Of a DNA stretch of 64,000 nucleotides, positions 4,250 through 57,377 are shown piece after piece. The position numbers and the translations under genes are program-made. How positions within the stretch are numbered: the first letter of the stretch is position 1; each line of letters opens with the position of its first letter. Below the pieces are notes generated by a model, which saw nothing but the letters and a program-made list of their open reading frames with translations, was not told the origin of the DNA and searched no databases. Source of the DNA: Halobacterium noricense. GTDB lineage: Archaea; Halobacteriota; Halobacteria; Halobacteriales; Halobacteriaceae. Location of the stretch: NCBI RefSeq assembly GCF_021233435.1, contig NZ_CP089468.1:434001-498000 (forward strand). Reading direction: 5' to 3'.

Positions 4250-4650
4250 CGTACGAACTCCGCGAACGTGAACCTGATGGCGGACGTGGAGGCAGTGTTC
4301 AGATAAGCAGACGAAAGTAGCGGAGACGACGTTGCCTTTTGAAAGCCCTCGGCAGTCTCGACTCCCGCGGCTCGCTGCGCGCGTTCGCTCCCGTTGGTCG
4401 CTCACGTGCTTACTTCGCCGGGGTTCGTCGAGACCACCTCGCCCTTTCAATCCGCCGGAAATCTCCGATTTCCGAGGCCTCGGGAGAGCGTTGCTCTCCC
4501 GGCGACCACCAGGGAACCGGCTGATTCGCCGGCTGAAGCTGCAGTCAGACCAATCCTTATCTGAACACCACCGACGTGGACGGCTTCTACGAGGAGTGGG
4601 GATTCGAGGAGACGCGGCCAGCGTCGAAAGGGATGTTCTGCCGGGCGTAG
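4250..4650 (+). pseudogene. GNAT acetyltransferase remnant interrupted by a miniature element
   Basis: Removing the 282-bp element at 4291-4572 and one copy of its 8-bp flanking repeat joins two pieces into a continuous reading ending in NLMADVDGFYEEWGFEETRP and, a few residues later, SKGMFCRA and a stop at 4648-4650. This matches the C-terminal acetyl-CoA-binding helix and last strands of GNAT acetyltransferases (the GFYE-GFE signature). Only about 45 residues survive; the N-terminal two thirds are absent, so the gene was already truncated or was lost after insertion. The element shifts the frame, so no product is expected. Confidence 0.7.
4291..4572. mobile_element. 282-bp non-autonomous element (MITE) with 8-bp target duplication
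   Basis: The ends are imperfect inverted repeats of 17 bp: GGCAGTGTTCAGATAAG at 4291-4307 and the complement of GGTGGTGTTCAGATAAG at 4556-4572, matching at 15 of 17 positions. Both sides carry the direct repeat GACGTGGA (4283-4290 and 4573-4580). Inverted repeats beginning GG with an 8-bp duplication suggest mobilisation by an IS6-type transposase; this is inference. The interior has no open frame but contains two tight hairpins, CGGAAATC/GATTTCCG (4456-4474) and CGGGAGAGC/GCTCTCCCG (4481-4501). It is inserted in the acetyltransferase remnant. Confidence 0.85.
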
Positions 4651-10414: not shown

Positions 10415-10905
10415 TCGGCGGTTTCGAGATTTGCGAACGCTTCGTCGACGTACTCGCCGGTCTCCGCGACGATTTCCGCCCACGTCTCGTCGTCGGGCGC
10501 CATCCCGAGCAGTCGCGCGATGCGCATGATGGAGACGTGGTAGACGCGCTGTTTGCCGGGTTCCTCCTGCCAGACCACGACGTTGCACGGGAACAGCGCG
10601 CCGATTTTGTTGTCGCTGGCGTCCAGCGCCCTATCCGCGACCTCGGGGTTGCACGCGCCCAGCACGTAGTAGGGGTCGCGGTCCGCGTCGTCGGACTGCG
10701 GCCGACTGCCTGAGGCGCTTTGCGCCTCTCTGTCGACTTTCTCGTTGAGGAGCTCCGAGGGCGAGAACTCCGCGGGGAACCCGAAGCCGGCCTCGGAGAA
10801 CGCCTCGCGGACGTGCTCGACGGCTTCCTCGTGGTCCATCGCCAGCACCGCCTGCTCCTCGCCGTACTCCTCGGGGTCGATGTCGCTGGGGTCATTCGGC
10901 AGCAT
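10411..10905 (-). CDS. DUF302 family protein carrying a 45-nt in-frame insertion
   Basis: A 164-residue cytosolic protein with the DUF302 signature (YYVLGACNPEVADRAL, IGALFPCNVVVWQEE); the biochemical role of this family is not established. I place the start at the ATG at 10905 (MLPNDPSDID). TTTAT at 10931-10935 on the coding strand then lies about 27 nt upstream, as in leaderless genes. Residues encoded by 10687-10731 (REAQSASGSRPQSDD) interrupt the otherwise family-like NEKVD-ADRDPYYV. They correspond to a two-hairpin insertion described separately. It is convergent with the CPBP protease gene. Confidence 0.85.
   Translation of the reverse strand: MLPNDPSDIDPEEYGEEQAVLAMDHEEAVEHVREAFSEAGFGFPAEFSPSELLNEKVDREAQSASGSRPQSDDADRDPYYVLGACNPEVADRALDASDNKIGALFPCNVVVWQEEPGKQRVYHVSIMRIARLLGMAPDDETWAEIVAETGEYVDEAFANLETAD
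10687..10731 (-). repeat. 45-nt double-hairpin element inside the DUF302 gene
   Basis: Read on the coding (minus) strand, this segment holds hairpin GAGGCGC-AAA-GCGCCTC (10712-10728), the linker AGGCA, and hairpin GTCGG/CCGAC (10690-10706). Removing exactly 45 nt restores a family-like protein, and CGAC occurs at both edges. The stretch AGAGGCG...CGCCTCAGGCAG is shared with the element in dapD. Confidence 0.75.
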
Positions 10906-10976
10906 ACCCGGTAGTCCGAGCGCCGCGAAGATAAAGCCCGGCAAGCCAGCAGCGCGCTCGCCCACACTCCGACCTG

Positions 10977-17044: not shown

Positions 17045-17092
17045 GGCGGTCGGCTCCGCCGACCGCCTCATGCCGTGGCGGCGAAGCCGCCA
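17045..17092. repeat. Intergenic double-hairpin module
   Basis: Stem 1 has 9 bp with loop CTCCG (17045-17067), stem 2 has 7 bp with loop GAA (17076-17092), and an 8-nt linker separates them. The layout matches that of the elements inserted in genes elsewhere in the window. Confidence 0.7.
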
Positions 17093-17101
17093 CTCGAGCC
17101 T

Positions 17102-42851: not shown

Positions 42852-44189
42852 CTACGGCTGCTCGCGGGCCACCCGCAGAATCGCTTCTGTGAGACTCTCC
42901 ACGCCGATACTAATCGACCGCTCGTCCACGTCGAACGTGGACGTGTGGTGGCCGCCGGGGTGGTCGGTACCGACGCAGACGTAACACGCCAAGCCACCCT
43001 GTTCCTGCACGCGTTTCATGAGGAAGGTGGCGTCCTCGCTGCCGCCGAGGTCGTCGCGGTCCAGAACAGAATCGACGCCCGCCACGTCCGCGGCTTCCGC
43101 ACCGAAGACGTCGCGGAGTTCGTCGTCGCTGGTGGCGCTCGGTGCTTCGCCCTTCGTGGAGAGTTCGACCTCGCAGTCGTGCATCTCCGCGGCCGAGTGC
43201 AGCACGCGGTCGGCTTTCTCCTTCATGTAGCGCATCAGCTCGGTGGTCTCGCCGCGGACCTCGCCCTCGACGAAGGCGTCCTCGGGGATGATGTTCGTCG
43301 CGGTGCCGCCGCCCGCGCGCCCGGCGTTCACGCGCGTCGCGCCGCCGTCGTGGCGCGGAATCGCGTAGAGGTTCTGGATGGCAGTCGCCATCGCCTGCAC
43401 CGCGTTCCGGCCCTGTTCGGGGTGGGCTCCGGCGTGCGCGGGTTCGCCGTCGAACTCCGCGAGCAGGTGGCTGACCGCGAGGAAGCCGTCGATGCCCGCG
43501 ACCACCTCCCCCGTGGGGTAGTCGAGGCCGAGGTGGACCGCGTAGAGGTAGTCCACGTCGTCGAGGTGACCGCTCTCCGCGACGGCCTTCCCGCCGCCGA
43601 CGCGCTCCTCCGCGGGCTGGAAGACGACTTTGAACGTGCCCGCGAAGTCGCTGGCTGCGATTGCTTCGAGGACGCCGACGCCGATGGCAGCGTGGCCGTC
43701 GTGCCCGCAGGCGTGCATCTGCCCCTCGTGCTCGGAGCGGAACCCCTCGCTCGCGGGATGGTGGTTGCCGCTCTCGGACTCGGTGATGTGGAGCGCGTCG
43801 ATGTCCACCCGTAGCGCGACGGTCGGCCCCTCGCCGCGTTCGAGCATCGCGACGGCACCCGTGTGGCCGCCCTCCAGTCGTTCGAGAATCTCTGGGTCCG
43901 CACCCTCGTCGCGGGCGCGCTCGAACCAGTCCGCGAGTTCGTCGTCCTCGGGCACCGCCATTCGCGCCTCCGGGTCGATTGCGTCGCGGCCGACGTGGAG
44001 TGTGTCCACGCCCCCAGAACTCGGAGAGTTTTGGTGTGCAGACGAATCGCGTTGCGATTCGTCGACGCCGATTCGTCGGCACGCCTCGACGATGCGCGCG
44101 GTCGTGTAGAACTCACACCACGCCGGCTCCGGGTGGCGGTGGAGGTCCCGGCGCAGGGCCACCAGCCGCTCGGCCGTGTCAGCGCTCAT
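42852..44189 (-). CDS. M20-family amidohydrolase with a 57-nt in-frame insertion
   Basis: A 445-residue zinc-type peptidase/aminoacylase. It has HACGHDGHAAIGVGVL with the metal-binding His and Asp, FQPAEERVGGGKAV with the catalytic Glu, AVHLGLDYPTGEV, HAGAHPEQGRNAVQAM (dimerisation domain) and GTDHPGGHHTSTFDVDE. The nearest relatives hydrolyse N-acyl amino acids or related amides. Residues encoded by 44011-44067 (SQRDSSAHQNSPSSGGVD) are a two-hairpin insertion near the N-terminus, away from the metal site, and the frame remains open. The stop directly abuts that of the reductase gene. Confidence 0.92.
   Translation of the reverse strand: MSADTAERLVALRRDLHRHPEPAWCEFYTTARIVEACRRIGVDESQRDSSAHQNSPSSGGVDTLHVGRDAIDPEARMAVPEDDELADWFERARDEGADPEILERLEGGHTGAVAMLERGEGPTVALRVDIDALHITESESGNHHPASEGFRSEHEGQMHACGHDGHAAIGVGVLEAIAASDFAGTFKVVFQPAEERVGGGKAVAESGHLDDVDYLYAVHLGLDYPTGEVVAGIDGFLAVSHLLAEFDGEPAHAGAHPEQGRNAVQAMATAIQNLYAIPRHDGGATRVNAGRAGGGTATNIIPEDAFVEGEVRGETTELMRYMKEKADRVLHSAAEMHDCEVELSTKGEAPSATSDDELRDVFGAEAADVAGVDSVLDRDDLGGSEDATFLMKRVQEQGGLACYVCVGTDHPGGHHTSTFDVDERSISIGVESLTEAILRVAREQP
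44011..44067 (+). repeat. 57-nt double-hairpin element inside the M20 gene
   Basis: Stem 1 is CCAGAACTC/GAGTTTTGG (one G-T pair), stem 2 GACGAATC/GATTCGTC, and the linker is TGTGCA. It is 44 of 57 identical to 53146-53202, with two paired changes that keep base pairing. ACG stands at the left flank and at the right end. Confidence 0.85.
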
Positions 44190-44242
44190 GTCTCCGGGGA
44201 GGCGCGGCTACCACATAAACCGTCACGTCCCACGATGTAGGT

Positions 44243-44250
44243 TTTTAATA
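44243..44250 (+). promoter_or_regulatory. TATA box of the NhaC gene
   Basis: TTTTAATA lies about 30 nt before the ATG at 44277 and is preceded by no ribosome-binding site, consistent with a leaderless transcript. Confidence 0.6.
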
Positions 44251-44276
44251 CGTGCGGCGAAGTGAGGGAAACACGT

Positions 44277-45833
44277 ATGGCAACCGACGACAGCGACGTA
44301 GCGGACGAATTACACGATTCCGGCGAAGGCGGCGGCCACGACATCGAGTTCTACGGTGGCCGCATCGCGAGCGCGATGCCGCTCGTGCTTTTCGTCGCGT
44401 GGGCCATCTTCCAGAGCGGCGTCTTGCAGGTCAGCGACACGACCGGCCTCGTCATCGGCATGCTCGCGGCGCTCGTCGTGGGCATGTTCTTCACGAAGGG
44501 GTCGTGGGCGTCGTACGCCAACACCATCTTCGAAGGGATGACCCAGCGGGTCGCAGCCACCGCCATCGTCGCGTGGCTGTGGGCCGGCATGTTCGCACAA
44601 CTGCTCCAGGACGGCGGCTTCGTGCAGGGACTCGTCTGGGCCGCGGACGTGGCCAGCGTCTCCGGGCCGCTGTTCCCCGCAGTCACGTTCCTGCTCGCCG
44701 CGCTGTTCACCACCGGTATCGGTACCGGGTACGGCGGGACTATCGCGTTCACGGGGCTGTTCTACCCCGCGGGCGTGTTGCTCGGCGCGAACCCCGTGTT
44801 GCTGTTCGGTGCCATCCTCTCCGGGGCCGTCTTCGGCGACAACCTCGCCCCGGTCAGCGACACCACCATCGTCTCCGCGGTCACGCAGGACGCCGACATC
44901 GGCGGCGTCGTCGCGTCGCGGTTCAAGTACGCCATCCTCGCCGCGGTGATTGCGTTCGCCGGCTACGTCGTCGCCGGCCAGGTGATGCCGGGCTCGGACG
45001 TCGCCACGAGCGCGAGCGCGTCCCTCGACGGCCAGCCGCTCGGACTCGTCCACGTGCTATCGATGCTGACGGTCATCGGCCTCGCGGTCGCCGGCCGCCA
45101 CATCGTCGAAGCCATCTCGTGGGGCATCATCGTCGCGCTCGTGTTCAACGTCGGCTCCACCCTCCTCGCGTCGTGGGGCGTCATCGAGAGCGGGCTCCAG
45201 ACCGCGCCCGCGCTGCTGTTCCGCGCGCCCGCCAGCTCCGGGCTGGCGCAGTCCCTCGACTGGCTGCCGTTCGTGCTCACCGTCGAGGAAGGCACGGGCG
45301 TCGTGGGCAGCCTCTACGGCGGCGCGTCCGGGTTCTTCCCGCTCATCGTGCTCACGCTGCTCATCGTCGCCGGTGCCCGCATCATGATTCAGGGCGGCGG
45401 CTTCGAGGCGATTCAGGCGTTCCTCCTGAACCGCGTCGCGACGAACGTCCGCCGCGCCGAGACCACGATGGTTCTCGGCACCGCGACCGTCAACGCGATG
45501 ATTACCATCAACACCGCCGCGGAGATTGCCATCGCGCCGTACATCGCGCGCATCGGCGAGCGGTTCAACATCAACGGCTACCGGCGCGCGAACATCCTCG
45601 ACGCCAACACCAGCGCGCTCGGCTACATCTTCCCGTGGGGTGGCGGCGTGCTCGCCGGCTACGGGGCGATGCGCGGGCTCGGCGAGAACATTCCCGTGGT
45701 CAACCCCATCGACGTCTGGCCGTTCGTCTTCCACGGCTGGCTGCTCTTTTTCGTCTTCCTGGCGGCCGCCGTCACGGGGTACGGCCTGGAGTACGTTAGC
45801 GACCGCGAATCCGAGGAGGTGAGTCGCGCATGA
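44277..45833 (+). CDS. nhaC: NhaC-type Na+/H+ antiporter
   Basis: A 518-residue antiporter with about twelve helices. Characteristic stretches are TTGIGTGYGGTIAFTGLF, FGAILSGAVFGDNLAPVSDT (the acidic ion-binding helix), GGGFEAIQAFLLNRV, and the long C-terminal ALGYIFPWGGGVLAGYG. It probably exports Na+ in exchange for H+ (or exchanges a small organic anion, as some NhaC relatives do), in keeping with life in brine. A small downstream gene overlaps its stop by 4 nt (ATGA), so the two are coupled. Confidence 0.93.
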   Translation: MATDDSDVADELHDSGEGGGHDIEFYGGRIASAMPLVLFVAWAIFQSGVLQVSDTTGLVIGMLAALVVGMFFTKGSWASYANTIFEGMTQRVAATAIVAWLWAGMFAQLLQDGGFVQGLVWAADVASVSGPLFPAVTFLLAALFTTGIGTGYGGTIAFTGLFYPAGVLLGANPVLLFGAILSGAVFGDNLAPVSDTTIVSAVTQDADIGGVVASRFKYAILAAVIAFAGYVVAGQVMPGSDVATSASASLDGQPLGLVHVLSMLTVIGLAVAGRHIVEAISWGIIVALVFNVGSTLLASWGVIESGLQTAPALLFRAPASSGLAQSLDWLPFVLTVEEGTGVVGSLYGGASGFFPLIVLTLLIVAGARIMIQGGGFEAIQAFLLNRVATNVRRAETTMVLGTATVNAMITINTAAEIAIAPYIARIGERFNINGYRRANILDANTSALGYIFPWGGGVLAGYGAMRGLGENIPVVNPIDVWPFVFHGWLLFFVFLAAAVTGYGLEYVSDRESEEVSRA

Positions 45834-46093
45834 CGCTCGGCTCGTTCCTCGCGGGCGTCGGCTTCCGCACGAACACGCCGGCGTTCGAGGCCGGCGAGGA
45901 GATTACGGCGTTCGTTACCGGCGTCGAGGACGGGACGGCCGTCGCGCGCGTCGGCGACTCGAAGCTCCGCATCTCGAACGCGCCCGCCGACCCCGTCGAC
46001 ACGCTCGTGCGCCTGCGCGTCGAGGGATTCAACGAGGACACGCACGTCGGGCAGGCGGAGTACCTCGAAACCGTCGGCGAGAGCTCGTTCTAG
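45830..46093 (+). CDS. Small OB/TRAM-like beta-barrel protein
   Basis: An 87-residue protein made of short strands (AGEEITAFVTGVEDGTAVAR, VGDSKLRISNAPADPVDTLV and VRLRVEGFNE), reading like a TRAM or OB fold, which generally binds nucleic acid. I associate it with a small haloarchaeal DUF family (possibly DUF7513) without certainty. Its ATG overlaps the nhaC stop codon. A direct link to antiporter function is not apparent; the coupling could simply set its expression. Confidence 0.7.
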   Translation: MTLGSFLAGVGFRTNTPAFEAGEEITAFVTGVEDGTAVARVGDSKLRISNAPADPVDTLVRLRVEGFNEDTHVGQAEYLETVGESSF

Positions 46094-46155
46094 CTCGCCG
46101 GCGCCGTCGCTATCGCTTCTCGACGTCGTCCAGGAGAGTTAGAGAGAAATCCCAG

Positions 46156-46488
46156 CTACGAGGAACCCAGCGGCTTCACTTGCTCCAGTTCGGCCTCGAC
46201 GTGGACGCTGTCCGGGAAATTCCGCTCCATGATGTCGCGGGCGAGGTCGTCGTGGCCGTACAGTTCGATGCGGCGGCGGTAGACCGTGTAGTGCCACGCG
46301 CCGGTCTTCTCGTCGTCGCGGCCGCCGAGGCAGCTGTACAGCGGGACGGACTGCTCGTCCGGGCTGTCCGAGTGCGGGCCTTTCATTTCCGCGCCCTTTC
46401 GACGGCACGTCGCCTTGATGTCGGCGACGACGCCGTCGAGGGCGGCTCGGTCGCCGCTCTTCAGCGAGAGTTTTGTGACGAAGGTCAT
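46156..46488 (-). CDS. uS10/mL48-family protein
   Basis: A 110-residue protein that resembles ribosomal protein uS10 (TFVTKLSLKSGDRAALDGVV, VYRRRIELYGHDDLARDIME). It is a paralogue rather than the ribosomal uS10 itself, because the central region (RRKGAEMKGPHSDSPDEQSV) is different and it is not in a ribosomal operon. Such paralogues are found in haloarchaea and are of unknown role; RNA binding is likely. The ATG is at 46486-46488. Confidence 0.8.
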   Translation of the reverse strand: MTFVTKLSLKSGDRAALDGVVADIKATCRRKGAEMKGPHSDSPDEQSVPLYSCLGGRDDEKTGAWHYTVYRRRIELYGHDDLARDIMERNFPDSVHVEAELEQVKPLGSS

Positions 46489-46613
46489 AGCTGGGGGTGC
46501 TGTACGAACGCACACGCTCCACCGTGAAAAAGCGTGTGTTTAGCGGGCTGGCGCGTGCCAGTCACCCACCCACTCCGACATTCTCTTAACTGGTCGTCCA
46601 CTACTTCGTGTTA

Positions 46614-47045
46614 ATGACGGTCGAAGCGACCAGCGCCGGAGCCATCTTGTTCCGCGACACGCGGGACCGGCGCGAATACCTCCTCCTGAAGAGCCGGCCC
46701 GGGGACTGGGAGTTCCCGAAGGGCGGCGTGGAGGGGGACGAAGAGCTCCAGCAGACGGCTATCAGAGAGGTACAGGAGGAAGCCGGCATCGAGGATTTCC
46801 GGCTCTTGGACGGCTTCCGAGACGACTACGACTACGTGTTCGAGGCAAACGGCACTCGCATCCACAAGACGGTCCACCTGTTCGTCGCGAAGTCCTTCGA
46901 GGCGAGCGCCGAACTGTCGAACGAACACTCGGACCTGCAGTGGCGCGACTACGAGCAGGCCATTAACACGATTACGCAGGACGGCCCGCGGGACATCCTC
47001 CGGGACGCCCACGAGTTCATCGACCAGCAACTCGAAGAAGCCTGA
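46614..47045 (+). CDS. NUDIX hydrolase (diadenosine tetraphosphatase type)
   Basis: A 143-residue NUDIX protein. The catalytic box GGVEGDEELQQTAIREVQEE, followed by AGI, fits the GX5EX7REUXEEXGU pattern. SAGAILFRDTRDRREYLLL and RPGDWEFPKGG are typical of asymmetric Ap4A hydrolases, which remove toxic or signalling dinucleotides. CTTAAC at about 46585-46590 sits 27 nt before the ATG at 46614. An upstream ATG at 46608 is possible but does not fit the promoter as well. Confidence 0.92.
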   Translation: MTVEATSAGAILFRDTRDRREYLLLKSRPGDWEFPKGGVEGDEELQQTAIREVQEEAGIEDFRLLDGFRDDYDYVFEANGTRIHKTVHLFVAKSFEASAELSNEHSDLQWRDYEQAINTITQDGPRDILRDAHEFIDQQLEEA

Positions 47046-47145
47046 CCGGTCTCCCACCGGTCGCTATTTTACTGCCCCGTAGCGGTGCTTCTCTCCCGAC
47101 GGGATCAGCGAAAGACGTAGGAGGACGAGCGGCCTCACCCCTCTC

Positions 47146-48162
47146 GTGGTCGACTCCGAGTTCGCGTTCGAACTCCGCGTCTGCGCGTGGGCCGAACACC
47201 ACTGGCACCCCGACGGCGAGCGCCCCTGCATCGTCGCGCGCCAGCTCGGCACGAAGCGGCGGCGCTGGGACACCGTCGTCGTGGAGGTCGACCCCGAAGC
47301 GCTGGCGGCGCGCGCGAACTTCGGCACCGACCGACTCGACTCGGACCTCCTGCACGTCGTCCGGAACGCACCCGAGGACTGGCAGTACTACCGGGACGCG
47401 CTCCCGCACCCCGGCTACCCGTGGCGCTACGTCCGCGAGGCAATCCACGAGGCCGCCGACCGCGGCGTCGTGGAGACGCGGCGGAACGGGAACAAGATAG
47501 AACTCAAGCGGAAGTGGCCGTACCCCGACTGGGTCGAGCGCATCGTCGCAATCGAGAACAAGCCCGACCTCGACGCCGCCGCGGCGGACGCGCTCGCCGA
47601 CCAACTGGAGCGCGACGTGGCGCTCGGACTCGCCGACGAGGTGTGGCTGGCGACCGAGTCCAGCGACGAGCGCGGCACCGAGCGCGCGCTGTTCGCGGAG
47701 ATGCCAGTCGAAGCTGGCGTCCTCACGTTCGCGGACGGCGAGGCGTCGGTTGCGTGGCACCCGCGGTCGCTCTCTCCCGACGGCGTCGGCACCAGAATCA
47801 CCGAGCGGCCCGCCGGCAGCGAGTTCGACCAGTCGCCCGCGAGCTTCGAGTACGTCGACGCCGACTGGAAGGCCGACAAGCGACTCGCTATCGCCGAACG
47901 CGCGTACGAACGGGGCTGGCGGTCGTACCTCGACACGATGCGGCCGGACTGCCGGCACTTCGCGGTCCAGCGAGACGCACATGGTTACGTGCCGTACTGC
48001 GCAGCGAAGGGCCGCGAACAGACGGCCGCGGAGTGCTCGGGATCGTGTCCCGAGTACGAGCCCGAGCCACCCACGTGGCGACAGGGCGGGTGGCCAATCG
48101 AGGGTGGGCCGGGCGCGACGATTCGGCGCATCCTCGACGAACGCCGGCAGCGAGAGCGGTAG
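47146..48162 (+). CDS. DUF5787-like protein, possible nuclease fold
   Basis: A 338-residue protein of a haloarchaeal family I associate with DUF5787. The N-terminus SEFAFELRVCAWAEHHW and a later VERIVAIENKPDLDAA with separated acidic residues and a lysine resemble the core of PD-(D/E)xK nucleases; this is a weak inference. The C-terminus has four cysteines (DCRHFAV...YC...CSGSCPEYEP) likely to bind a metal. The start is GTG at 47146 (MVDSEFAF). It is a single-gene unit after the NUDIX gene, 100 nt apart. Confidence 0.72.
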   Translation: MVDSEFAFELRVCAWAEHHWHPDGERPCIVARQLGTKRRRWDTVVVEVDPEALAARANFGTDRLDSDLLHVVRNAPEDWQYYRDALPHPGYPWRYVREAIHEAADRGVVETRRNGNKIELKRKWPYPDWVERIVAIENKPDLDAAAADALADQLERDVALGLADEVWLATESSDERGTERALFAEMPVEAGVLTFADGEASVAWHPRSLSPDGVGTRITERPAGSEFDQSPASFEYVDADWKADKRLAIAERAYERGWRSYLDTMRPDCRHFAVQRDAHGYVPYCAAKGREQTAAECSGSCPEYEPEPPTWRQGGWPIEGGPGATIRRILDERRQRER

Positions 48163-48195
48163 CTGGTCGGGTTCGTCTCGGACGTCGGAGGGGCG

Positions 48196-48333
48196 CTACT
48201 GGACGAGTTCGAACTCGATGACGTGTTCGTCGCCGTACGTCGCCTGGTGTTCGTCGCGGAATTCGAAGACGTCGTCTAACGCCTCCATCTCGCGCGTGAA
48301 ACTACACAGTGTGCAGGTCACCGTGTAGGGCAT
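48196..48333 (-). CDS. 45-residue CxxC microprotein
   Basis: A short frame MPYTVTCTLCSFTREMEALD with a single CxxC followed by a helix and ending in EHVIEFELVQ. The composition is that of haloarchaeal proteins, and an alpha-helical His (DEHQ, DEHV) could complete a metal site. It lies convergent with the DUF5787-like gene, 33 nt past its stop. No promoter is obvious. Confidence 0.6.
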   Translation of the reverse strand: MPYTVTCTLCSFTREMEALDDVFEFRDEHQATYGDEHVIEFELVQ

Positions 48334-48429
48334 GGAAAACCACTACTCGAAGATACGGTCTCCAGATGGATAGTGTCCCACATTTACCACATAATCAACA
48401 GCGACAGTCGGCACGAGCGGCCGGCAGCG

Positions 48430-48942
48430 TCAGGCTTCCGAGGCGGCGGACTGCTCGTCGTCGCGCTCCGCGATGTTCACGTCCTCGCGCGGGACCGCGA
48501 GCTTGTACGTCGGGACGGTGCGGTGTTCGACGGTCACGATGCCCTTGCGCTTGAGCGTCTGGAGCGCGCGCCGAACGTCCGCCGATTCGAGGTCGGGCAC
48601 GTCGAACTCGTCGCGGACCGCGTGCAGCACCGAGACGACGCTCTCGGCGCGCTCGTCCGGGCCGGCGATGACCGCGAACACGCGGCGCTCGTTCTCGGAC
48701 ATGTGGACGGCGGGTGCCTCGCCGCTCTCGGGCGCTTTCCCGACGAGTTCGGCGGCCTCCGCGGTCGCGCGAATCAGGCTGTTCTCGTCGCGGTAGTAGT
48801 AGTCCCGCAGCTCCGACTCGAGGTACTGGTGGACGTCGCTGCCGCTTTCCACGTCCCAGCGGTCCTGGAGCACGCCGTTTTTCGTCGGCTGGAGTTCCAC
48901 GATGTCCGCCAGCCGCTCGCGGTCCTCCTCGGAGAGGGTCAT
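48430..48942 (-). CDS. DUF5797-like winged-helix protein
   Basis: A 170-residue protein. The N-terminal LADIVELQPTKNGVLQDRW and SDVHQYLESELRDYYYRDEN match a conserved haloarchaeal family I associate with DUF5797. Residues 85-150 look like a winged helix (MSENERRVFAVIAGP, ADVRRALQTLKRKGIVTVEH). A role in transcription is plausible. Its ATG is at 48940-48942, 79 nt from the divergent enoyl-CoA hydratase gene, which it could regulate. Confidence 0.78.
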   Translation of the reverse strand: MTLSEEDRERLADIVELQPTKNGVLQDRWDVESGSDVHQYLESELRDYYYRDENSLIRATAEAAELVGKAPESGEAPAVHMSENERRVFAVIAGPDERAESVVSVLHAVRDEFDVPDLESADVRRALQTLKRKGIVTVEHRTVPTYKLAVPREDVNIAERDDEQSAASEA

Positions 48943-49021
48943 GGAAGTCGGTACTCAGCGCCAGTATTTCGGGCTTGCGAAGACCCCGGCCATTATTTGC
49001 GCCGTCCACGTCCACACGCGC

Positions 49022-49792
49022 ATGGCAGACACAGTCCGCTCCGAGTTCGAGGACGGCGTCGCGACCGTCACCGTCGACCGCCCCGAGAGCCTGAACGCGC
49101 TCAACGTCGAGACGCTGCACGCACTCCACGACGCCGTCGAGGAGGCCGAACGGCGGGACGCTCGCGTGCTCGTGCTCACGGGTGCCGGCGACGACGCGTT
49201 CGTCGCGGGCGCGGACATCGCCCACATGGCCGAGATGGACTCTCAGGAAGCCCACGAGTACGCCGAACTCGGTCACGACCTCGCGGACGCCATCGAGTCG
49301 TTCCCCGTGCCGGTCGTCGCCGCCATCAACGGCTACGCGTTCGGCGGCGGGATGGAGCTCGCGCTCGCCTGCGACCTCCGCGTCGCCAGCGAGACCGCCG
49401 TGCTGGGGCAGACCGAAATCGACCTCGGCATCATCCCGGGCTGGGGCGCGACCCAGCGGCTGCCCCAGCTCGTCGGCGACGAGACCGCGCGCCGCCTCGT
49501 CTACTTCGGCGACCGTCTCGACGCCACCGACGCCTACGAGGAAGGCCTCGTCGGCGAAGTCGTCGCACACGACGAGCTCGACGACCACGTCGCCGAGCTC
49601 GCGGCCGACCTCGCGACCAAGTCACAGACGGCGCTCAGCGCCGCCAAGGACGCTATCAACCAGAGCCACGAGACGCCACTCGACGCCGGGCTGGAGTACG
49701 AACGCCGGACGTGGGCGAGCCTGTTCGGGAGCCACGACCAGCGCGAAGGCATGCAAGCGTTCCTCGACGACCGCGAACCGGACTTCGAGTAG
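49022..49792 (+). CDS. Enoyl-CoA hydratase/isomerase family protein
   Basis: A 256-residue crotonase-fold enzyme. FVAGADIAHMAEMD supplies the first oxyanion-hole residues, AINGYAFGGGMELALACDLR the second, and TEIDLGIIPGWGATQRLPQL (in parts) holds the catalytic glutamate. The overall length and the C-terminal LFGSHDQREGMQAFLDDRE are those of enoyl-CoA hydratases (crotonases) acting on 3-hydroxyacyl or enoyl thioesters. No beta-oxidation partners lie nearby, so its pathway is not fixed. Confidence 0.93.
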   Translation: MADTVRSEFEDGVATVTVDRPESLNALNVETLHALHDAVEEAERRDARVLVLTGAGDDAFVAGADIAHMAEMDSQEAHEYAELGHDLADAIESFPVPVVAAINGYAFGGGMELALACDLRVASETAVLGQTEIDLGIIPGWGATQRLPQLVGDETARRLVYFGDRLDATDAYEEGLVGEVVAHDELDDHVAELAADLATKSQTALSAAKDAINQSHETPLDAGLEYERRTWASLFGSHDQREGMQAFLDDREPDFE

Positions 49793-49841
49793 TCCAATTA
49801 GAGGGGCAACAGTTAGGGACGTATGCCTGGTACGGTCCAGC

Positions 49842-50099
49842 ATGGCACCCGACGTGAAACTCAACGAGCTCCGGGCGGAACTCGACTCGCTCACCTACCC
49901 CGCGACCCGCGAGGACGTCCTCGCGGAGTTCGACGACGTTGTGTTGCGGTACGCGGACGGCGAAGAACGCCTCGGGGACGTCGTCGGCCGCGTCACCGAG
50001 GACGTGTTCGTCAGCCCCGACGACCTCGAAGCCGCCCTCTACAACAACCTCCCGACGGAAGCCGTCGGCGAATCCGGCCAATCGGAGGGCGACGGGTGA
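49842..50099 (+). CDS. Small DUF5789-type protein
   Basis: An 85-residue acidic protein (MAPDVKLNELRAELDSLTYP) with two predicted helices and a final region DDLEAALYNNLPTEAVGES. This resembles the haloarchaeal family I associate with DUF5789 (compare LRAELDSLTYPATREDVL with other members). Function unknown. It precedes the transcription factor S gene by 38 nt on the same strand, but tfs has its own promoter. Confidence 0.7.
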   Translation: MAPDVKLNELRAELDSLTYPATREDVLAEFDDVVLRYADGEERLGDVVGRVTEDVFVSPDDLEAALYNNLPTEAVGESGQSEGDG

Positions 50100-50137
50100 A
50101 ACAAGGGGCTTAACTTACACGACGGCGTTCACGTCGT

Positions 50138-50452
50138 ATGGAGTTCTGCGACGAGTGCGGCTCGATGATGAAAGCGGAGGACGGCCTCTGGGTCTGCGGC
50201 GGCTGCGGGAACAAACAGCCCAAAGACCCCGACGCCTCCTTCGTCGTCACCGAAGGGCAGGAAGAGACCGAAATCGTCGACGTCAGCGACGCCCAGGACC
50301 GTGGGCTCCCGACGACGGAAGTGGTCTGCCCGAACTGTGAGAACGACACCGCTCACTGGTACATGCAGCAGATTCGGTCCGCCGACGAATCCGAGACGCG
50401 TTTCTTCATCTGCACGGAGTGCGAGCAGCGCTGGCGCGAAGACGACAACTAG
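50138..50452 (+). CDS. tfs: Transcription factor S (TFIIS-like RNA cleavage factor)
   Basis: A 104-residue factor that rescues arrested RNA polymerase by stimulating cleavage of the transcript. The N-terminal zinc ribbon is FCDECGSMMKAEDGLWVCGGCG; the C-terminal ribbon has CPNCENDTAHWYMQQIRSADE (in parts), with the acidic DE pair that reaches the active site, then FFICTECEQRWRED. Both knuckles are intact. CTTAAC near 50108 lies 27 nt before the ATG, so transcription is leaderless. A strong hairpin follows the gene. Confidence 0.96.
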   Translation: MEFCDECGSMMKAEDGLWVCGGCGNKQPKDPDASFVVTEGQEETEIVDVSDAQDRGLPTTEVVCPNCENDTAHWYMQQIRSADESETRFFICTECEQRWREDDN

Positions 50453-50464
50453 AACGTACCTTTT

Positions 50465-50510
50465 TACTATGGGGGTGCGCCTGGGCACCCCCATAGTAAA
50501 AATCTACGCT
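50465..50510 (+). terminator. 17-bp stem after tfs
   Basis: TTTTTACTATGGGGGTG and CACCCCCATAGTAAAAA pair perfectly around CGCCTGGG, and the stem begins and ends with T/A runs, the most terminator-like structure in the window. It starts about 10 nt past the tfs stop. Edges are accurate to a few nt. Confidence 0.75.
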
Positions 50511-50542
50511 AAAAACGTCCTGCGCTCACTCCGTTCGCGCAG
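50504..50542 (-). repeat. 39-nt dispersed repeat, copy 2
   Basis: Exact reverse complement of 27799-27837. The gap 50453-50683 also has CGCGCGGC-GGA-GCCGCGCG near 50548-50566. Nothing in the gap looks coding. Confidence 0.9.
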
Positions 50543-50683
50543 TGAAACGCGCGGCGGAGCCGCGCGTATGCTCGCTAATTTTAAATACCGAAGCGCGACC
50601 AGCGACGGCCATGCAGTAATCGAGCGCGGGACGGTGGATGCAGCGAGGCGGCGAGCCGTCCCCGAGAACGAGCCGCCGGACAG

Positions 50684-51403
50684 CTACGGATTCCGCGCGA
50701 ACGTCAAGTAGCCGGTGTGGCCGACGCCCGCCGTCGATGGCCGCGAGCCGCGCTCGTCGAGGTCCATCTCCCGCTGAATCGTCTCTATCGTCTCCACGTT
50801 CGCCAGGCCTGCGTCCTCGGCGGCGAGGTTGACCTCGCGTGCGTCCTCCACGAACGGCGAGTAGACGGCGGCGTAGCCGCCCGAGACCAGCAGGTCGTCC
50901 GCGCGCTCGACGACCGTCGGCGCGTTCGCGGTGTCCAAGGTCAGCAGGTCGAACGCCGCGAGGTCGTCGAGGTGGTCGGTCACGTCGCCCGTGCGAACGT
51001 CGACCGTGTCCGCGACTTCCGCGAGTTCCATGTTCTCCCGCGCGACCTCCGCGAACTCCGGGTCGCGCTCGTAGGTCACGACGTCCGCACCCAGTCGTCC
51101 GAGGTAGGCGGCGAGCACCCCGGTGCCGGTGCCGGCGTCGAGCACACGGTCGCCCCGCGACGCGCCCGTGTGGCCGACGACCAGCCCGATGTCCTTGGGC
51201 ATCATCGGTGCGCCCGTCCGGTCGAGGTGGTTGAACAGGTCCGGGCCGCGAAGCTCCCGGACGGTGAACGGCTCGCCGAGATGCGTCTCCACCGTCTCAC
51301 CGGGTTCGACGCTCTCGGGGACGTCGATGACGCCGAGGTCGGTGTGGACTTCGTCGCCCGGTGCAGCGAGGAACTCTCTGTCCTCCCGAACGAGCAGAAT
51401 CAC
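50684..51403 (-). CDS. trmI: tRNA (adenine-N1)-methyltransferase TrmI type
   Basis: A 239-residue SAM-dependent methyltransferase that forms m1A in the T-loop (or at position 57/58) of tRNA. It has a small N-terminal beta domain ([19 protein letters not shown]), [18 protein letters not shown], the SAM-binding loop [16 protein letters not shown] and [16 protein letters not shown], then [13 protein letters not shown]. The end ([12 protein letters not shown]) is that of the family. Its start overlaps the NAC gene stop by 4 nt, so both are translated from one message. Confidence 0.93.
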
Positions 51404-51786
51404 TCCAGCCGGGAGATAGCCGCGGCGAGGTCGCCGTCGGTCGCCTCCAGCGCCGCGCGCGCGTCGGCCTCGGTGGCGCCGGTCCGCTGGACGACCAGCT
51501 CGATGTCGTCTTCGGGAATGCCGCCGTCGCTACCGCCTTCGTCGGCGGCTTCGTCGGCGGCTTCGACCTCGCCCGCGCTCTCGACGGTCTCGGGCTCGCC
51601 GATAATCTGGTAGGTCTCCTGCCCGCGAGCGTCCATCTTCGTGACGTCCGGGTTGTCGAAGACGAGCTGGTCGCCGTCGGTTCGCTTGATGACGACCTCG
51701 GTGGCATCGATTTCGTCGACGTCGATGCCCATCTGTTTCATCATCTGTTGCATCTTCTGGGGGTTCATGCCGCCTCCGCCAAACAT
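51400..51786 (-). CDS. nac: Nascent polypeptide-associated complex protein (archaeal NAC)
   Basis: A 128-residue chaperone that binds new chains at the ribosome. After [20 protein letters not shown] (basic, Met-rich ribosome-binding start) comes the NAC beta-barrel ([39 protein letters not shown]) and, after an acidic linker, a UBA domain ([20 protein letters not shown]). The upstream 57 residues in the long frame are rejected as non-coding. It lies in a PUA-NAC-TrmI gene order known from other haloarchaea. Confidence 0.95.
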
Positions 51787-52004
51787 GCCCGAAGCGTCGC
51801 GTCGCGGTGTGAAAAGGATGACGAACGACCTTTTGCTGCACTCGGTCGCTGCGCTCCCCCGTTTGCAAAATCTCGGCCAAAAGCCAGCGTCATCGTTCGA
51901 AAGACGGCTCCGCCGTCCTTCGTGATGACGAAAGGCACGAAGCGCCTTTCGAACCACTCCCTACAGTCGCTCCTCGGCCCGGACTCGCTTCGCTCGTCCG
52001 GTGA
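51787..52004. repeat. Hairpin-rich gap between the PUA gene and nac
   Basis: Holds GACGGC-TCC-GCCGTC (51903-51917), a linker and CGAAAGGC/GCCTTTCG (51929-51951), then CCGGAC/GTCCGG near 51978-52000. This double-hairpin layout resembles the elements inserted in genes. It is unusual as spacer within an expected operon. Confidence 0.7.
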
Positions 52005-52475
52005 TTACTTCTGGACGCTGTCCCGCACCATCACCGCCATTCCCGTGTCGAAGTCGAGCATCGAGCCGGCGTCGAGTTCCGCGCGGCCGACCGCGAGCAG
52101 CGCGCCGCGCTCGTGGACGACAGCGACCTCGTCGCCGGCGCGGACGTCCGGATCGACCGTCTGGACGAACTTCGAGAAGACGTTCTTCCCCTCGCGGACG
52201 AACGGCTCGCTGTCGTCGCCGACGACCACGCGCGCCGCGGGATGCGCGAGGTTGTCGACGAGCCGGCGGCCACCCGCAGCGCCGAGCGTGAAGCGGCCGT
52301 CCATCCCGACGGAGACGAGGCGCGCGCCGTCGTCGCGGGCGACCTGTTGGGGGCGGCCGGTGGTCGAGCGCTGCACCTCGAAGCGTTCCTCCGGCGGGAA
52401 CAGCGCCGCGCCCGCGCCGGCTCCGAACTGGTAGTCGGCGACGGTCCGCAGCGATTTCACGTCCGCGTCCTGCAT
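52005..52475 (-). CDS. PUA domain RNA-binding protein
   Basis: A 156-residue protein whose last 80 residues are a PUA domain (FVQTVDPDVRAGDEVAVVHE, LLAVGRAELDAGSMLDFDTG), found in many tRNA- and rRNA-modifying enzymes. The first part (LRTVADYQFGAGAGAALFPP) is the pre-PUA region of an archaeal conserved family. RNA binding is likely; no catalytic domain is present. It is upstream of nac and trmI on the same strand, though a hairpin-rich 218-nt gap separates it from nac. The start is the ATG at 52475. Confidence 0.9.
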   Translation of the reverse strand: MQDADVKSLRTVADYQFGAGAGAALFPPEERFEVQRSTTGRPQQVARDDGARLVSVGMDGRFTLGAAGGRRLVDNLAHPAARVVVGDDSEPFVREGKNVFSKFVQTVDPDVRAGDEVAVVHERGALLAVGRAELDAGSMLDFDTGMAVMVRDSVQK

Positions 52476-52576
52476 GCGTCGAGGGTCGGCTGGCGGGCGT
52501 AAAGCCACTTCGGGTCGCCGTCGTGGGCGTCCGGAAAGTGGATGCGTTTATGTGGTGTGGGCCGCAACCCGGAGGC

Positions 52577-52765
52577 ATGAACGAGACCGCGAAAATCGGG
52601 ATTGCGGCGGTGCTGCTCGCTGTCGGTGCCGCGATGTTGGTGTGGGCGAGCTTCGACCCCTCGGGGACGACGCTGCTGCTGGTCGTGGCGGCTGTCGCGA
52701 CGACGCTGCTGGCGGCCGGGTCGCTGTTGATGGGGTCGACCGGCACCGACGGCCGGATGGTTTAG
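52577..52765 (+). CDS. Two-helix small membrane protein
   Basis: A 62-residue protein with two transmembrane helices (IGIAAVLLAVGAAMLVWASF and TLLLVVAAVATTLLAAGSLL), a short loop FDPSGT and a polar C-terminus. Small double-helix proteins like this are plentiful in haloarchaea and mostly unstudied. GTTTATG around 52547-52553 lies about 27 nt upstream of the ATG at 52577. A TnpB-element remnant begins directly after its stop. Confidence 0.7.
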   Translation: MNETAKIGIAAVLLAVGAAMLVWASFDPSGTTLLLVVAAVATTLLAAGSLLMGSTGTDGRMV

Positions 52766-52920
52766 CTGAAAGTAGGCGCTAAGCCCCCTTCCTCAGCGAG
52801 CGCCGACCGAAGGGAAGGCGCGAGCAGGGAGGGGATACAGCGCCGCACGATTCGGTGGCAGGCCCACAGGCCCACGCAATCGCAATATTTTTGCATTAGG
52901 TACCGTACTACAGGACGAAC

Positions 52921-53313
52921 CCAATAGAGTACGACCTCGACTCGGGGGTGCACTTCGTGGCGGTCAACCCGAGAGGGACGACCAAGGAGTGCGCGTCCTG
53001 CGGCGTCTCGACGGAGAAGCCGTTGTGGGTCCGTGAACACTCCTGTCCCGCCTGCGGGTTTGAGGCGGACAGGGACGCGAACGCGGCGTGGAACATTCTT
53101 TCTCGCGGCCTCGAAGATGTAGGAGTGGGATACTCCGAATCAACGTCCCCAGAAATCGAAGATTTCTGGTGTGCGAACGAATCGCAGAGTGATTCGTTAA
53201 CGCCTGTGGAGACTGCGCTCCCTACGGGAACCACTACGGTTCCTGCAAAGCGCGTCGTGGAAGCAGGAAGCCCTACCCCCAAGGAGCGAACGGCGTCAGC
53301 CGTGAGCGAGTAG
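52921..53313 (+). pseudogene. tnpB: TnpB C-terminal remnant
   Basis: The frame reads FVAVNPRGTTKECASCGVST, HSCPACGFEADRDANAAWNI and ends with TPVETALP...VVEAGSP, the C-terminal quarter of IS1341-type TnpB. The zinc finger (CASC, CPAC) and the last RuvC aspartate (in DRDANAA) remain; the N-terminal and first two RuvC motifs are gone, so no RNA-guided nuclease activity is possible. Between SEST and TPVET, 19 residues (beginning SPEIEDFWCANESQ) come from the 57-nt insertion at 53146-53202. Confidence 0.88.
53146..53202 (+). repeat. 57-nt double-hairpin element inside the TnpB remnant
   Basis: CCAGAAATC-GAA-GATTTCTGG (9 bp), linker TGTGCG, AACGAATC/GATTCGTT (8 bp). Removing exactly 57 nt restores the usual GYSESTPVETALP. 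AACG stands at both edges. The best related copy is at 44011-44067. Confidence 0.9.
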
Positions 53314-55708: not shown

Positions 55709-56502
55709 GAATCGGGGTTACTGGTGCGACCGGGCGGATGGGCCGCGAGGTCCGCGAGGAGGCCGCCGAGCGCGGCGTCGAGGTGGCGTTCGCGACGACC
55801 CGCAACCCCGGCAGCGACCTCGACCCGGCCAGTGAGTTCGCGTCGCTGGTGGCGGCCGAGAATCCTGACGCGGTCGTGGACTTTACCGTGCCGGAGGCGA
55901 GCGTGGAGTACGTGACCGCCTGCGCGGCCGCCGGCGTCCCCATCGTCGTCGGCACCACCGGCTTCGACGACAACCAACTGGACGCGCTCCGGGACGCGGG
56001 CAGCGACGCGCCCGTGCTGCTCGGCGCGAACTTCTCGCGGGGCATCCAAGCCCTCCTGGACGTCGTCGAGCAGGCAGTCGGGTCGCTCCCCGAGTACGAC
56101 GTCGAGGTCACCGAGACCCACCACAACGGGAAGCGCGACGCACCCAGCGGCACGGCGAACGTGCTGCTGGACCGTATCGAGCGCGCGGCCGAGCGCAGTG
56201 AGGCCGCGGAACGAGGAGCCGGGAGCGCGGCGACCGGCGATAGCGGCGAGTCCGAGCGCGTCCACGGACGCGTGGGCGACCAGCCCCGCGAGGACGGCGA
56301 AATCGGCGTGCACGCGCGCCGCGCCGGCGACGTCACCGGCGAGCACGAGGCGCTGCTCGCCGGGAACGACGAAGTGCTGGAACTCACACACCGCGCGGGC
56401 GACCGGTCGGTGTTCGCGGCGGGCGCGCTCGACGCCGCCGCGTGGCTCGCCGACCAGCCCGCCCAGTTCTACCGATTCGAGGAGGTTGCTTCCGAACTAT
56501 GA
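55705..56502 (+). CDS. dapB: 4-hydroxy-tetrahydrodipicolinate reductase
   Basis: Reduces the DapA product with NAD(P)H. The 265 residues open with IGVTGATGRMGREVREEA (nucleotide-binding loop), then VVDFTVPEASVEYV, VVGTTGFDDNQLDAL, LLGANFSRGIQALL and the family signature ETHHNGKRDAPSGTANVLLD with catalytic His and Lys. A 20-25-residue Ala/Glu/Ser-rich segment (after RIERAAERSEA) before HGRVGDQPREDG is longer than I expect, but shows no clear hairpins. It overlaps dapA and dapD at both ends. Confidence 0.95.
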   Translation: MRIGVTGATGRMGREVREEAAERGVEVAFATTRNPGSDLDPASEFASLVAAENPDAVVDFTVPEASVEYVTACAAAGVPIVVGTTGFDDNQLDALRDAGSDAPVLLGANFSRGIQALLDVVEQAVGSLPEYDVEVTETHHNGKRDAPSGTANVLLDRIERAAERSEAAERGAGSAATGDSGESERVHGRVGDQPREDGEIGVHARRAGDVTGEHEALLAGNDEVLELTHRAGDRSVFAAGALDAAAWLADQPAQFYRFEEVASEL

Positions 56503-57377
56503 GTCTGGAATCTGACGTACGAGACCTGTGGCAACGACACGAAGACGGAGAGGCGTCGAAGACGCCTCAGGCAGACGGCGAAGCCGTCGACGGCGACCTG
56601 ACCGCGGAGACCGCGAGTGCCGACGACGCGGACACGCTCGAAGCGTTCCTCGACGCGCTCGAAGCCGGGGACGTGCGCGCCGCCGAGCAGTCCGGTGGCG
56701 AGTGGGAGGCCGTCGAGTGGGTCAAGCGCGGCGTCCTCCTGAACTTCGCGCTCCGGGAGACCGAGCCCCGCGAGTACGGCGACGTCACCTACCACGACGT
56801 GCTCCCGCTGCGCGACACCAACGACCTCTACGAGCGGGGCACGCGGAACACGCCCGACGGCACGGTGCTCCGTCGCGGCGCGCACCTCGGCTCGGACTGC
56901 ATCGTGATGTCCCCGGCGTTCGTGAACATCGGCGCGCACGTCGGCGACGGCACGCTCGTCGACTCCTGTGACACCGTCGGCTCGTGCGCACAAATCGGCG
57001 AGGACGTGAAGCTCGGCGCGAACACGCTCATCGGCGGCGTGCTCGAACCCGTCGAGAGCGCGCCCGTCGTCGTCGAGGACGGCGTCTCGCTGGGCGCGGG
57101 CTGCCGGGTCACGTCCGGGTTCGTCGTCGGCGAGGACTCCGTGGTCGGCGAGAACACGCTGCTGACGCCGCGCATCCCCGTCTACGACCTCGTCGAGGAA
57201 GAGATTCTGTACGGCGAACTGCCGCCCGAGCGGCGCGCATTCACGCGCTACGTGGAGTCCAGCGTCGGCGACCACGACCTCTTCGACGGCGGCGCGTTCA
57301 AGCCCGCGGTCGTCGCGATGGACCTCGAAGCGGAGACGCTCGACGCGACCCAGCGCGAGGAGGTTCTCCGGTCGTGA
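56499..57377 (+). CDS. dapD: Tetrahydrodipicolinate N-succinyltransferase with a 45-nt in-frame insertion
   Basis: Transfers succinyl from succinyl-CoA to tetrahydrodipicolinate, defining the succinylase branch. The 292-residue protein has a helical N-terminus (SLESDVRDLWQRH) and a left-handed beta helix of hexapeptide repeats (VNIGAHVGDGTLVDSCDTVG, CAQIGEDVKLGANTLIGGVL). Between HEDG and DLTAE, 15 residues (EASKTPQADGEAVDG region) are encoded by a two-hairpin insertion at 56548-56592. It lies in the variable N-terminal domain away from the active site. The start ATG at 56499 overlaps the dapB stop. Confidence 0.94.
   Translation: MSLESDVRDLWQRHEDGEASKTPQADGEAVDGDLTAETASADDADTLEAFLDALEAGDVRAAEQSGGEWEAVEWVKRGVLLNFALRETEPREYGDVTYHDVLPLRDTNDLYERGTRNTPDGTVLRRGAHLGSDCIVMSPAFVNIGAHVGDGTLVDSCDTVGSCAQIGEDVKLGANTLIGGVLEPVESAPVVVEDGVSLGAGCRVTSGFVVGEDSVVGENTLLTPRIPVYDLVEEEILYGELPPERRAFTRYVESSVGDHDLFDGGAFKPAVVAMDLEAETLDATQREEVLRS
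56548..56592 (+). repeat. 45-nt double-hairpin element inside dapD
   Basis: GAGGCGTC-GAA-GACGCCTC (8 bp), linker AGGCA, GACGGC-GAA-GCCGTC (6 bp). GACG stands at both edges. The first stem and linker match the element in the DUF302 gene (AGAGGCG...CGCCTCAGGCAG). Confidence 0.85.

Follow-up and report, generated by a model that had tools for sequence, protein, structure and literature searches.

Probable mobile double-hairpin elements within protein genes of Halobacteriales

A 64,000-nt stretch of the Halobacterium noricense genome (GCF_021233435.1, NZ_CP089468.1 positions 434,001-498,000, forward strand; hereafter the window, to which all coordinates are relative) contains four protein genes interrupted by short insertions, each made of two adjacent hairpins. 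The insertions fall into two families, R1 (45 nt; in a DUF302 gene and in dapD) and R2 (57 nt; in an M20 hydrolase gene and in a tnpB remnant). We consider it highly probable that R1 and R2 are small, non-autonomous mobile elements that are inserted in frame and translated within their host proteins. We show that these elements have inserted repeatedly and precisely, that their hairpins covary, that R1 copies in genes obey a frame constraint, that copies are spread across the order Halobacteriales, and that insertion follows a target rule. More weakly, we infer that a HUH-type transposase (the Y1 enzyme of IS200/IS605 elements) may move the hairpins in trans as single-stranded DNA. Intragenic palindromic elements are known from bacteria and, as far as we searched, are new for archaea: the open-access papers listed by our searches, in part only the best of larger sets, gave no description of in-frame palindromic elements in archaea, subscription papers not being covered.

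Two families of double hairpins and their empty sites

The four gene-borne elements of the window are:

10687..10731, minus strand: R1 element, 45 nt, in frame in a DUF302 gene (10411-10965, minus)
56547..56591, plus strand: R1 element, 45 nt, in frame near the start of dapD (56499-57377)
44011..44067, plus strand in model orientation: R2 element, 57 nt, read on the minus strand in an M20 hydrolase gene (42852-44189, minus)
53146..53202, plus strand: R2 element, 57 nt, in the C-terminal part of a tnpB remnant (open reading frame 52948-53313)

An initial annotation of the window had proposed all four as insertions, and both model matches and empty sites bear it out on their existence and position. 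Only the dapD element shifts, starting one base upstream of the 56548 first given if its target GAC is kept outside. Models built from seven (R1) and four (R2) copies match the DUF302-gene copy at E 3.6e-13 (G000:C1:444687-444734), the dapD copy at 7.3e-18, the M20 copy at 2.5e-20 and the tnpB-remnant copy at 1.2e-20, and Pfam assigns DUF302 and Peptidase_M20 to the respective hosts. The elements at 44011-44067 and 53146-53202 are homologous, with a shared pattern that matches twice in the window and never in 100 shuffles; those at 10687-10731 (minus) and 56547-56591 share a pattern of their own by the same kind of test. In both families the two hairpins are separated by a linker of about 6 nt.

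The lengths first given also hold, as empty sites fix them at 45, 45 and 57 nt for the DUF302, dapD and M20 copies. Exactly 45 nt are missing from all three sister loci fetched for the DUF302 gene and exactly 57 nt from all three fetched for the M20 gene; the dapD site is empty by 45 nt in four of five sister loci fetched and filled in one (genome G010). The R2 copy of the tnpB remnant is absent from three IS605 stretches of two other genera that align on both flanks, and its flanks align to intact tnpB copies with about 57-59 nt left unmatched.

Across the 3.3 Mb genome, 20 R1 copies are confident matches to their model (E<=2.3e-6) and three more are weak, and the R2 model gives 59 matches at E<=1, 20 of which reach 1e-5. 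The genome search that the initial annotation had suggested as a check thus returns about 20 confident copies per family, with more across the order. Of the confident R1 copies, ten belong to a composite repeat some 600 bp long and the other ten to genes: Pfam places their hosts as thioredoxin, a lipoamide-dehydrogenase-like enzyme, dapD, ribonucleotide reductase, CobN, DUF302, a HerA-like helicase, an M20 peptidase and a heavy-metal P-type ATPase, and PheS was named through solved homologues. The element is identical over 45 nt in the thioredoxin, lipoamide dehydrogenase and ribonucleotide reductase genes, and the dapD copy differs by one base. Unrelated proteins, essential ones among them, would thus contain an almost identical short peptide. 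Genic R2 hosts include menD, a fibrillarin-like gene, a gene for an FAD protein (two copies) and one for another protein (two copies). The two R2 copies of the FAD protein (L059/L067) stand side by side, 114 nt together, and are missing in both of two sister loci; those of the other protein (L066) lie some 40 residues apart in one gene.

Comparison of 14 host genes with sister species revealed clean empty sites for all 14, in line with the expectation of the initial annotation that orthologues would lack the segments. The pheS site is empty in 12 of 12 sister species, the 11 full-length orthologues measuring 1506 nt against 1551 nt in H. noricense; the pheS of G009 is a split gene in which the site is likewise empty. 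The 57 nt in menD have no counterpart in any of the 12 sister species. For 12 further host genes, 36 of 40 sister loci, hand-picked among the matches listed by a joined-flank query with known-filled loci included, show one clean gap of 45, 30, 57, 60 or 114 nt. The four filled loci are thioredoxin, dapD and HerA in G010 and lipoamide dehydrogenase in G009. Host genes of R2 have gained 57 nt (menD and M20), 60 nt (fibrillarin-like), 114 nt (FAD protein, two copies) and about 57-59 nt (tnpB). Alignments to solved homologues likewise gap at the insert in lipoamide dehydrogenase (1ebd), PheS (8s8b, 3l4g) and MenD (2x7j); in ribonucleotide reductase and the fibrillarin-like protein, alignments to solved structures do not reach across it. 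In a relative (L280, genome G027), ribosomal protein uL2 carries an R1 insert that adds 16 residues relative to the 1s72 chain, between Asp and Gly.

Two loci, L042 (1501-1554) and L092, hold a shortened R1 that keeps hairpin 1 and runs out at GACGGCGA, a sequence that occurs within hairpin 2 of R1 and, at some insertions, on their right side as well. The 30-nt version of R1 would be explained by deletion between direct repeats such as GACGGCGA.

In R1 the hairpins show strong covariation. Among 64 distinct R1 rows, 98.7% of pair cells hold standard pairs, in an alignment (A3, using 61 of the loci) that was fitted to the model, which favours the pairing score. Both sides have changed in 184 cells; shuffles give 55.8 such cells, and sliding the partner never gives more than 15. 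These double changes fall in seven of eight pairs of helix 1 and three of six of helix 2.

Both families reach well beyond H. noricense. Among 78 genomes from 33 genera of the order, 39 genomes and 18 genera contain R1 matches (E<=1e-3, H. noricense included); R2 matches occur in 33 of 40 genomes and 19 of 23 genera (E<=1e-5). A pattern for one R1 subtype, run against the genomes of 84,980 species, hit seven loci, all haloarchaeal by title (Haloglomus, Halostella, Halobacterium twice, a Natrialbaceae metagenome-assembled genome, Haloarcula and Halorientalis). Each of the seven is in an open frame with the usual phase, and the two Halobacterium loci (L079 and L264 of G009) lose the frame after the element. 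Further R1 hosts by Pfam are molybdopterin oxidoreductase, ABC transporter, flavin amine oxidoreductase, S9 peptidase, nitrite/sulphite reductase, cupin, class-I W/Y tRNA synthetases and DUF309. Taken together, empty sites, copies in unrelated genes, covariation and the frame constraint described below uphold the likeness to the in-frame palindromic elements of Rickettsia that the initial annotation had drawn.

Reading frame and encoded peptide of genic copies

We examined the contexts of 104 R1 copies: 15 of the 20 in H. noricense, the 29 best copies of relatives and 60 hand-picked from listed matches. Five of the ten H. noricense copies in the composite repeat were never classified, and the other five stand outside both the genic and the non-genic group. 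The genic group comprises 37 copies: 31 passed an automatic test of both flanks for coding, and another six, near gene ends, were assigned by hand. The length of the model match is divisible by three in 36 of these 37 (45 nt in 33) and in only 12 of 62 non-genic copies, 44 of which measure 49 or 47 nt (genic versus non-genic, Fisher p 2e-15).

Phase is as uniform as length. In all ten genic copies of H. noricense the best-scoring frame has the same strand and phase, and all 31 automatic calls share one codon phase. Of these, 27 are sense-strand calls and four were scored on the other strand; for three of the four (L085, L100, L279) Pfam backs the sense reading, and for L319 it does not do so clearly. 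The target alone would not yield this uniformity, since among 1157 GAC/GTC triplets in coding flanks GAC falls in sense phase 0 in only 452. The R1-encoded linker is hydrophilic and about 15 residues long, with consensus DREASKTPQADGEAVD; for R2 copies whose empty sites are known, the gain is 19 or 20 residues. We infer that R1 is probably under selection for a translated hydrophilic peptide; R1 and R2 inserts are presumably translated, and their host proteins presumably work.

Several observations weigh against this interpretation. Because the automatic test accepts a copy only if the frame stays open across the element, it is biased towards in-frame copies, and R1 lengths are those of model matches, which overrun the insert in the shortened copies L042 and L092. 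Two genic copies of the draft genome G009 (L079 and L264) are 44 nt long with the frame broken; they share the same 1-nt deletion, reflecting either the spread of a frame-breaking variant or assembly errors. The frame case is weak for R2, with nine genic copies among 58 classified, on one strand but in phases split 6/2/1; three of the nine are shortened or off length, and the tnpB copy of the window reads on the other strand. As a control, the 62 non-genic copies were examined for broken genes: coding signal is absent from both flanks in 55, and among the other seven are three that read as genic and in frame (L314, L096, L313) and one that looks genic and broken (L264). The corresponding control on the 37 genic copies gives coding signal on both sides in one frame for 27, on one side for six, on different strands for three and in another frame for one.

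Target, mobilisation and alternative explanations

Of the 37 genic R1 copies, 29 are preceded on the left by GAC and 31 end on the right in GAC; of the 62 others, 44 are preceded by GAC, AAC or AGC and 56 end in GAC. At six of ten R1 sites of H. noricense, the empty orthologue continues with GG. Thirteen of the 62 non-genic copies, from six genomes, lie inside a palindrome like that beside tnpB in L254 and L262; at these IS605-type palindromes the left triplet is AAC (10) or AGC (3), and the right is GAC in 10, indicating that the target is not duplicated. Target duplication, which the GAC...GAC edges might suggest, is therefore ruled out, as the right GAC is nearly constant and the left triplet varies. 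The short flank copies that the initial annotation saw at both edges resolve into a varying target on the left and the element's own triplet on the right. Insertion takes place directly 3' of RAC for R1 (mostly GAC, AAC, AGC) or of NCG for R2, without target duplication.

In IS605 elements, R2 is found in the left-end region and in the C-terminal part of tnpB at CAGCG^CCGC. One further feature of the window bears on this:

52838..52846, plus strand: empty R2 target CAGCG^CCGC in the left-end region of the same IS605 remnant that contains the tnpB remnant

R2 is present at the equivalent left-end site in IS605 copies L255 and L257; in alignment with L255 the window is uninterrupted at 52838..52846, with a separate 13-nt difference a few bases on. 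The IS605 remnant of the window is thus empty in its left-end region and filled in tnpB, and one other IS605 of the genome is empty in tnpB. That R2 is an IS605 end, as its position beside Y1 genes might suggest, is ruled out by aligned IS605 copies with and without R2. The kinship with IS605 ends raised by the initial annotation accordingly changes its meaning: R2 in the IS605 copies tested represents insertion into tnpB or the left-end region rather than an end, and 13 non-genic R1 copies lie in a palindrome like that beside tnpB.

In our model, R1 lands directly 3' of a short target, mostly GAC, AAC or AGC, and R2 after NCG. The target remains unduplicated, the element bringing its own GAC (R1) or ACG (R2) at its right end, and some copies land in palindromes or genes of IS605-type transposons. 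Within genes, an R1 copy with a length divisible by three would be read in one frame and translated as a hydrophilic linker, and the host protein would presumably keep working with the insert.

Which enzyme might move the hairpins is less clear. We give an even chance to the idea that IS200/IS605 (Y1 HUH) transposases act in trans, as for REPINs, which a RAYT mobilises. The absence of target duplication, a short target on the immediate 5' side, a hairpin near each end and insertions into IS605-type elements all fit such an enzyme, as does the presence in H. noricense of Y1 genes alongside near-identical R1 copies. R2 copy number rises moderately with Y1 number across 40 genomes (rho 0.42, p 0.007), and we rate the idea somewhat higher because of this correlation, which may nevertheless reflect only R2 carried inside IS605 elements; those R2 copies beside Y1 genes that were aligned are insertions into such elements. 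For R1 the evidence runs the other way: copy number and Y1 number are uncorrelated across 78 genomes (rho -0.05, p 0.69), which rules out Y1 number as the cause of R1 copy number, and no Y1 match was found in the R1-carrying genomes G029 (22 copies), G066 (26), G043 (14; 63% complete) and G056 (13). G017 likewise holds 23 R2 copies without a Y1 match. These R1 results count against the mobilisation step of our model.

A second question is whether copies at the same site descend from one ancient insertion that was precisely lost in many lineages or exchanged between them. The initial annotation had named distant orthologues with the same segment at the same place as the observation that would argue against insertion. 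Such same-place R1 copies do occur in different families, for the HerA-like helicase, the heavy-metal P-type ATPase and the class-I W/Y tRNA synthetase; nearer relatives of the helicase and the ATPase are empty. An ancient insertion or exchange draws support from the dapD and HerA copies of H. noricense and G010, which are nearly identical, and from the modest degree to which host genes separate lineages. However, one of the two HerA copies in other families (L082) is of another subtype, and the other (L103), of the H. noricense subtype, differs in sequence. In lipoamide dehydrogenase, moreover, the elements of H. noricense and G009 are equal save for one missing base while their flanks are 87% identical, and the nearer G004 (92%) is empty. 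Because nearer helicase and ATPase relatives are empty and the helicase copies are of two subtypes, the same-place copies of these two genes point mainly to repeated use of one target. We favour repeated insertion at a preferred site over precise loss or gene exchange, which we consider unlikely, though less so for dapD and HerA, whose copies H. noricense has in common with G010.

It is far less probable that the segments are removed after transcription, by RNA splicing or by ribosome hopping of the kind described for mitochondrial byps elements. Genic R1 copies are mostly bounded by GAC on either side, and hairpins flanked by matching codons fit hopping, as does the retention of strong hairpins. 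Removal would however free the length from the rule of three, as in the byps translational bypass elements, where length is frame-free; the divisibility by three of 36 of 37 genic copies, set against the 49 and 47 nt of most others, speaks against both splicing and hopping. Automatically called genic copies also contain no in-frame stop, though the test demanded this. Finally, chance hairpins in GC-rich genes combined with ordinary indels of variable loops, although double hairpins do arise a few times in resampled sequence, are refuted for practical purposes by the clean empty sites, by unrelated genes that contain the same 45-mer and by model E-values that reach 1e-20.

Known palindromic elements and further repeats

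We compared R1 and R2 with known systems by description. We read R1 and R2 as working like Rickettsia palindromic elements (RPEs) and intragenic dimers of repetitive extragenic palindromes (REPs), and as resembling the short mobile repeats (SMRs) of Haloquadratum, yet as missing a defining feature of each. As described in PMC10969869, RPEs are about 150 bp long, lie in frame in many unrelated genes and encode a conserved peptide. R1 and R2 likewise form palindromic families inserted in frame in unrelated genes (14 genes with empty sites, and the frame of R1), but they are double hairpins of 45-60 nt in haloarchaea.

GTAG and CGTC REPs of bacteria occur within open reading frames, more than half of them as dimers or groups, coding for 20-30 residues; CGTC REPs have no dedicated transposase, and have AT-first stems, loops of 4-5 nt and CCA tails (PMC3733652, as excerpted). 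Short hairpins, often dimeric and inside open reading frames, are common to REPs and to R1 and R2. The phyla named for GTAG and CGTC REPs in that part of PMC3733652 are bacterial, however, whereas R1 and R2 are archaeal. R1 also lacks a GTAG or CGTC tag and departs from the REP stem, loop and tail rules, and R2 stems open with C-G pairs and carry 3-nt loops; CGTC does occur at one R2 edge, with its CG taken as target.

The closest haloarchaeal parallel is SMR-A of Haloquadratum walsbyi, described in the consulted part of PMC3119063 as about 110 bp long, with prominent inverted terminal repeats, no transposase, no target duplication and an unknown mode of movement, and as inserted in near-terminal palindromes of IS605-type transposons. 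R1 shares with it the haloarchaeal host, the absence of a transposase, the lack of target duplication and insertion in IS605-type palindromes (13 of 62 non-genic copies). Non-genic R1 matches are only 43-53 nt long, though, and on inspection the two ends do not form inverted repeats; the SMR-A descriptions consulted in this source (PMC3119063) also do not mention insertion in frame within host genes, as found for R1 and R2. Palindrome-associated transposable elements (PATEs), in the same excerpt, have palindromes near their ends that resemble IS605 ends, no target duplication and no transposase (PMC3119063). Palindromes near the ends and the absence of both target duplication and a transposase recur in R1 and R2; unlike PATEs, R2 and some R1 copies sit as insertions within IS605-type elements, and R2 ends are not IS605 ends.

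Translated mobile DNA in conserved proteins has been described in Rickettsia and other bacteria, according to the literature we found. An order-wide archaeal counterpart, reaching PheS, ribonucleotide reductase, lipoamide dehydrogenase and, in a relative, uL2, would indicate that the phenomenon is no quirk of bacteria or of reduced parasites. It would account for some of the lineage-specific 15- and 19-residue insertions in haloarchaeal alignments, and haloarchaea are tractable hosts in which to measure the insertion mechanism and the cost of the inserted peptide. More tentatively, we envisage as a real but minority possibility that haloarchaea own protein-invading elements independent of REPs and RPEs, in which duplication-free RAC^GG insertion at Asp-Gly turns would steer copies in frame into permissive surface loops, the same loop being hit repeatedly across lineages, and in which the enzyme, at least for R1, would not be the known Y1. 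If so, they would keep supplying proteins with new linkers, ribosomal proteins and tRNA synthetases included.

The initial annotation had seen the same layout at three further places in the window. Double hairpins as a class are only modestly enriched: the window has eight, and four resampled sequences have 0, 3, 0 and 1. The hairpins at 17045-17093 and 51898-51951 (first given from 51903) exist, yet neither matches the R1 or R2 model at E<=1 in a search of the H. noricense genome; at 4456-4501 the only overlap is a weak R2 match (4417-4482, E=0.06). Membership of these three in R1 or R2 is thus unsupported by model matches in this genome, and the layout alone stands. With stems of 8-11 bp, the hairpins at 17045-17093 and 51898-51951 possibly represent further families of the same architecture.

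The third place, 4456-4501, lies in one more feature of the window:

4298..4565, no strand assigned: short derivative of the ~600 bp composite repeat, with ends TTCAGATAAG / CTTATCTGAA, from the window sequence and an alignment of nine loci

The composite repeat (L028, L029, L030, L038, L039 and others) contains many hairpins and has the ends TTCAGATAAG...CTTATCTGAA across the nine aligned loci. The derivative contains only the non-member double hairpin 4456-4501, and full-length genomic copies contain R1. A phage collection searched with the window repeat (~4290-4570) gave no match. The composite repeat looks like a miniature inverted-repeat transposable element (MITE-like) that has gathered small elements.

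Finally, tandem R1 copies are common in one genus (L285, L287, L288 and L289 in G066, L299 in G029 and L304 in G045), where neighbouring elements share a GAC within stretches that have no coding signal.

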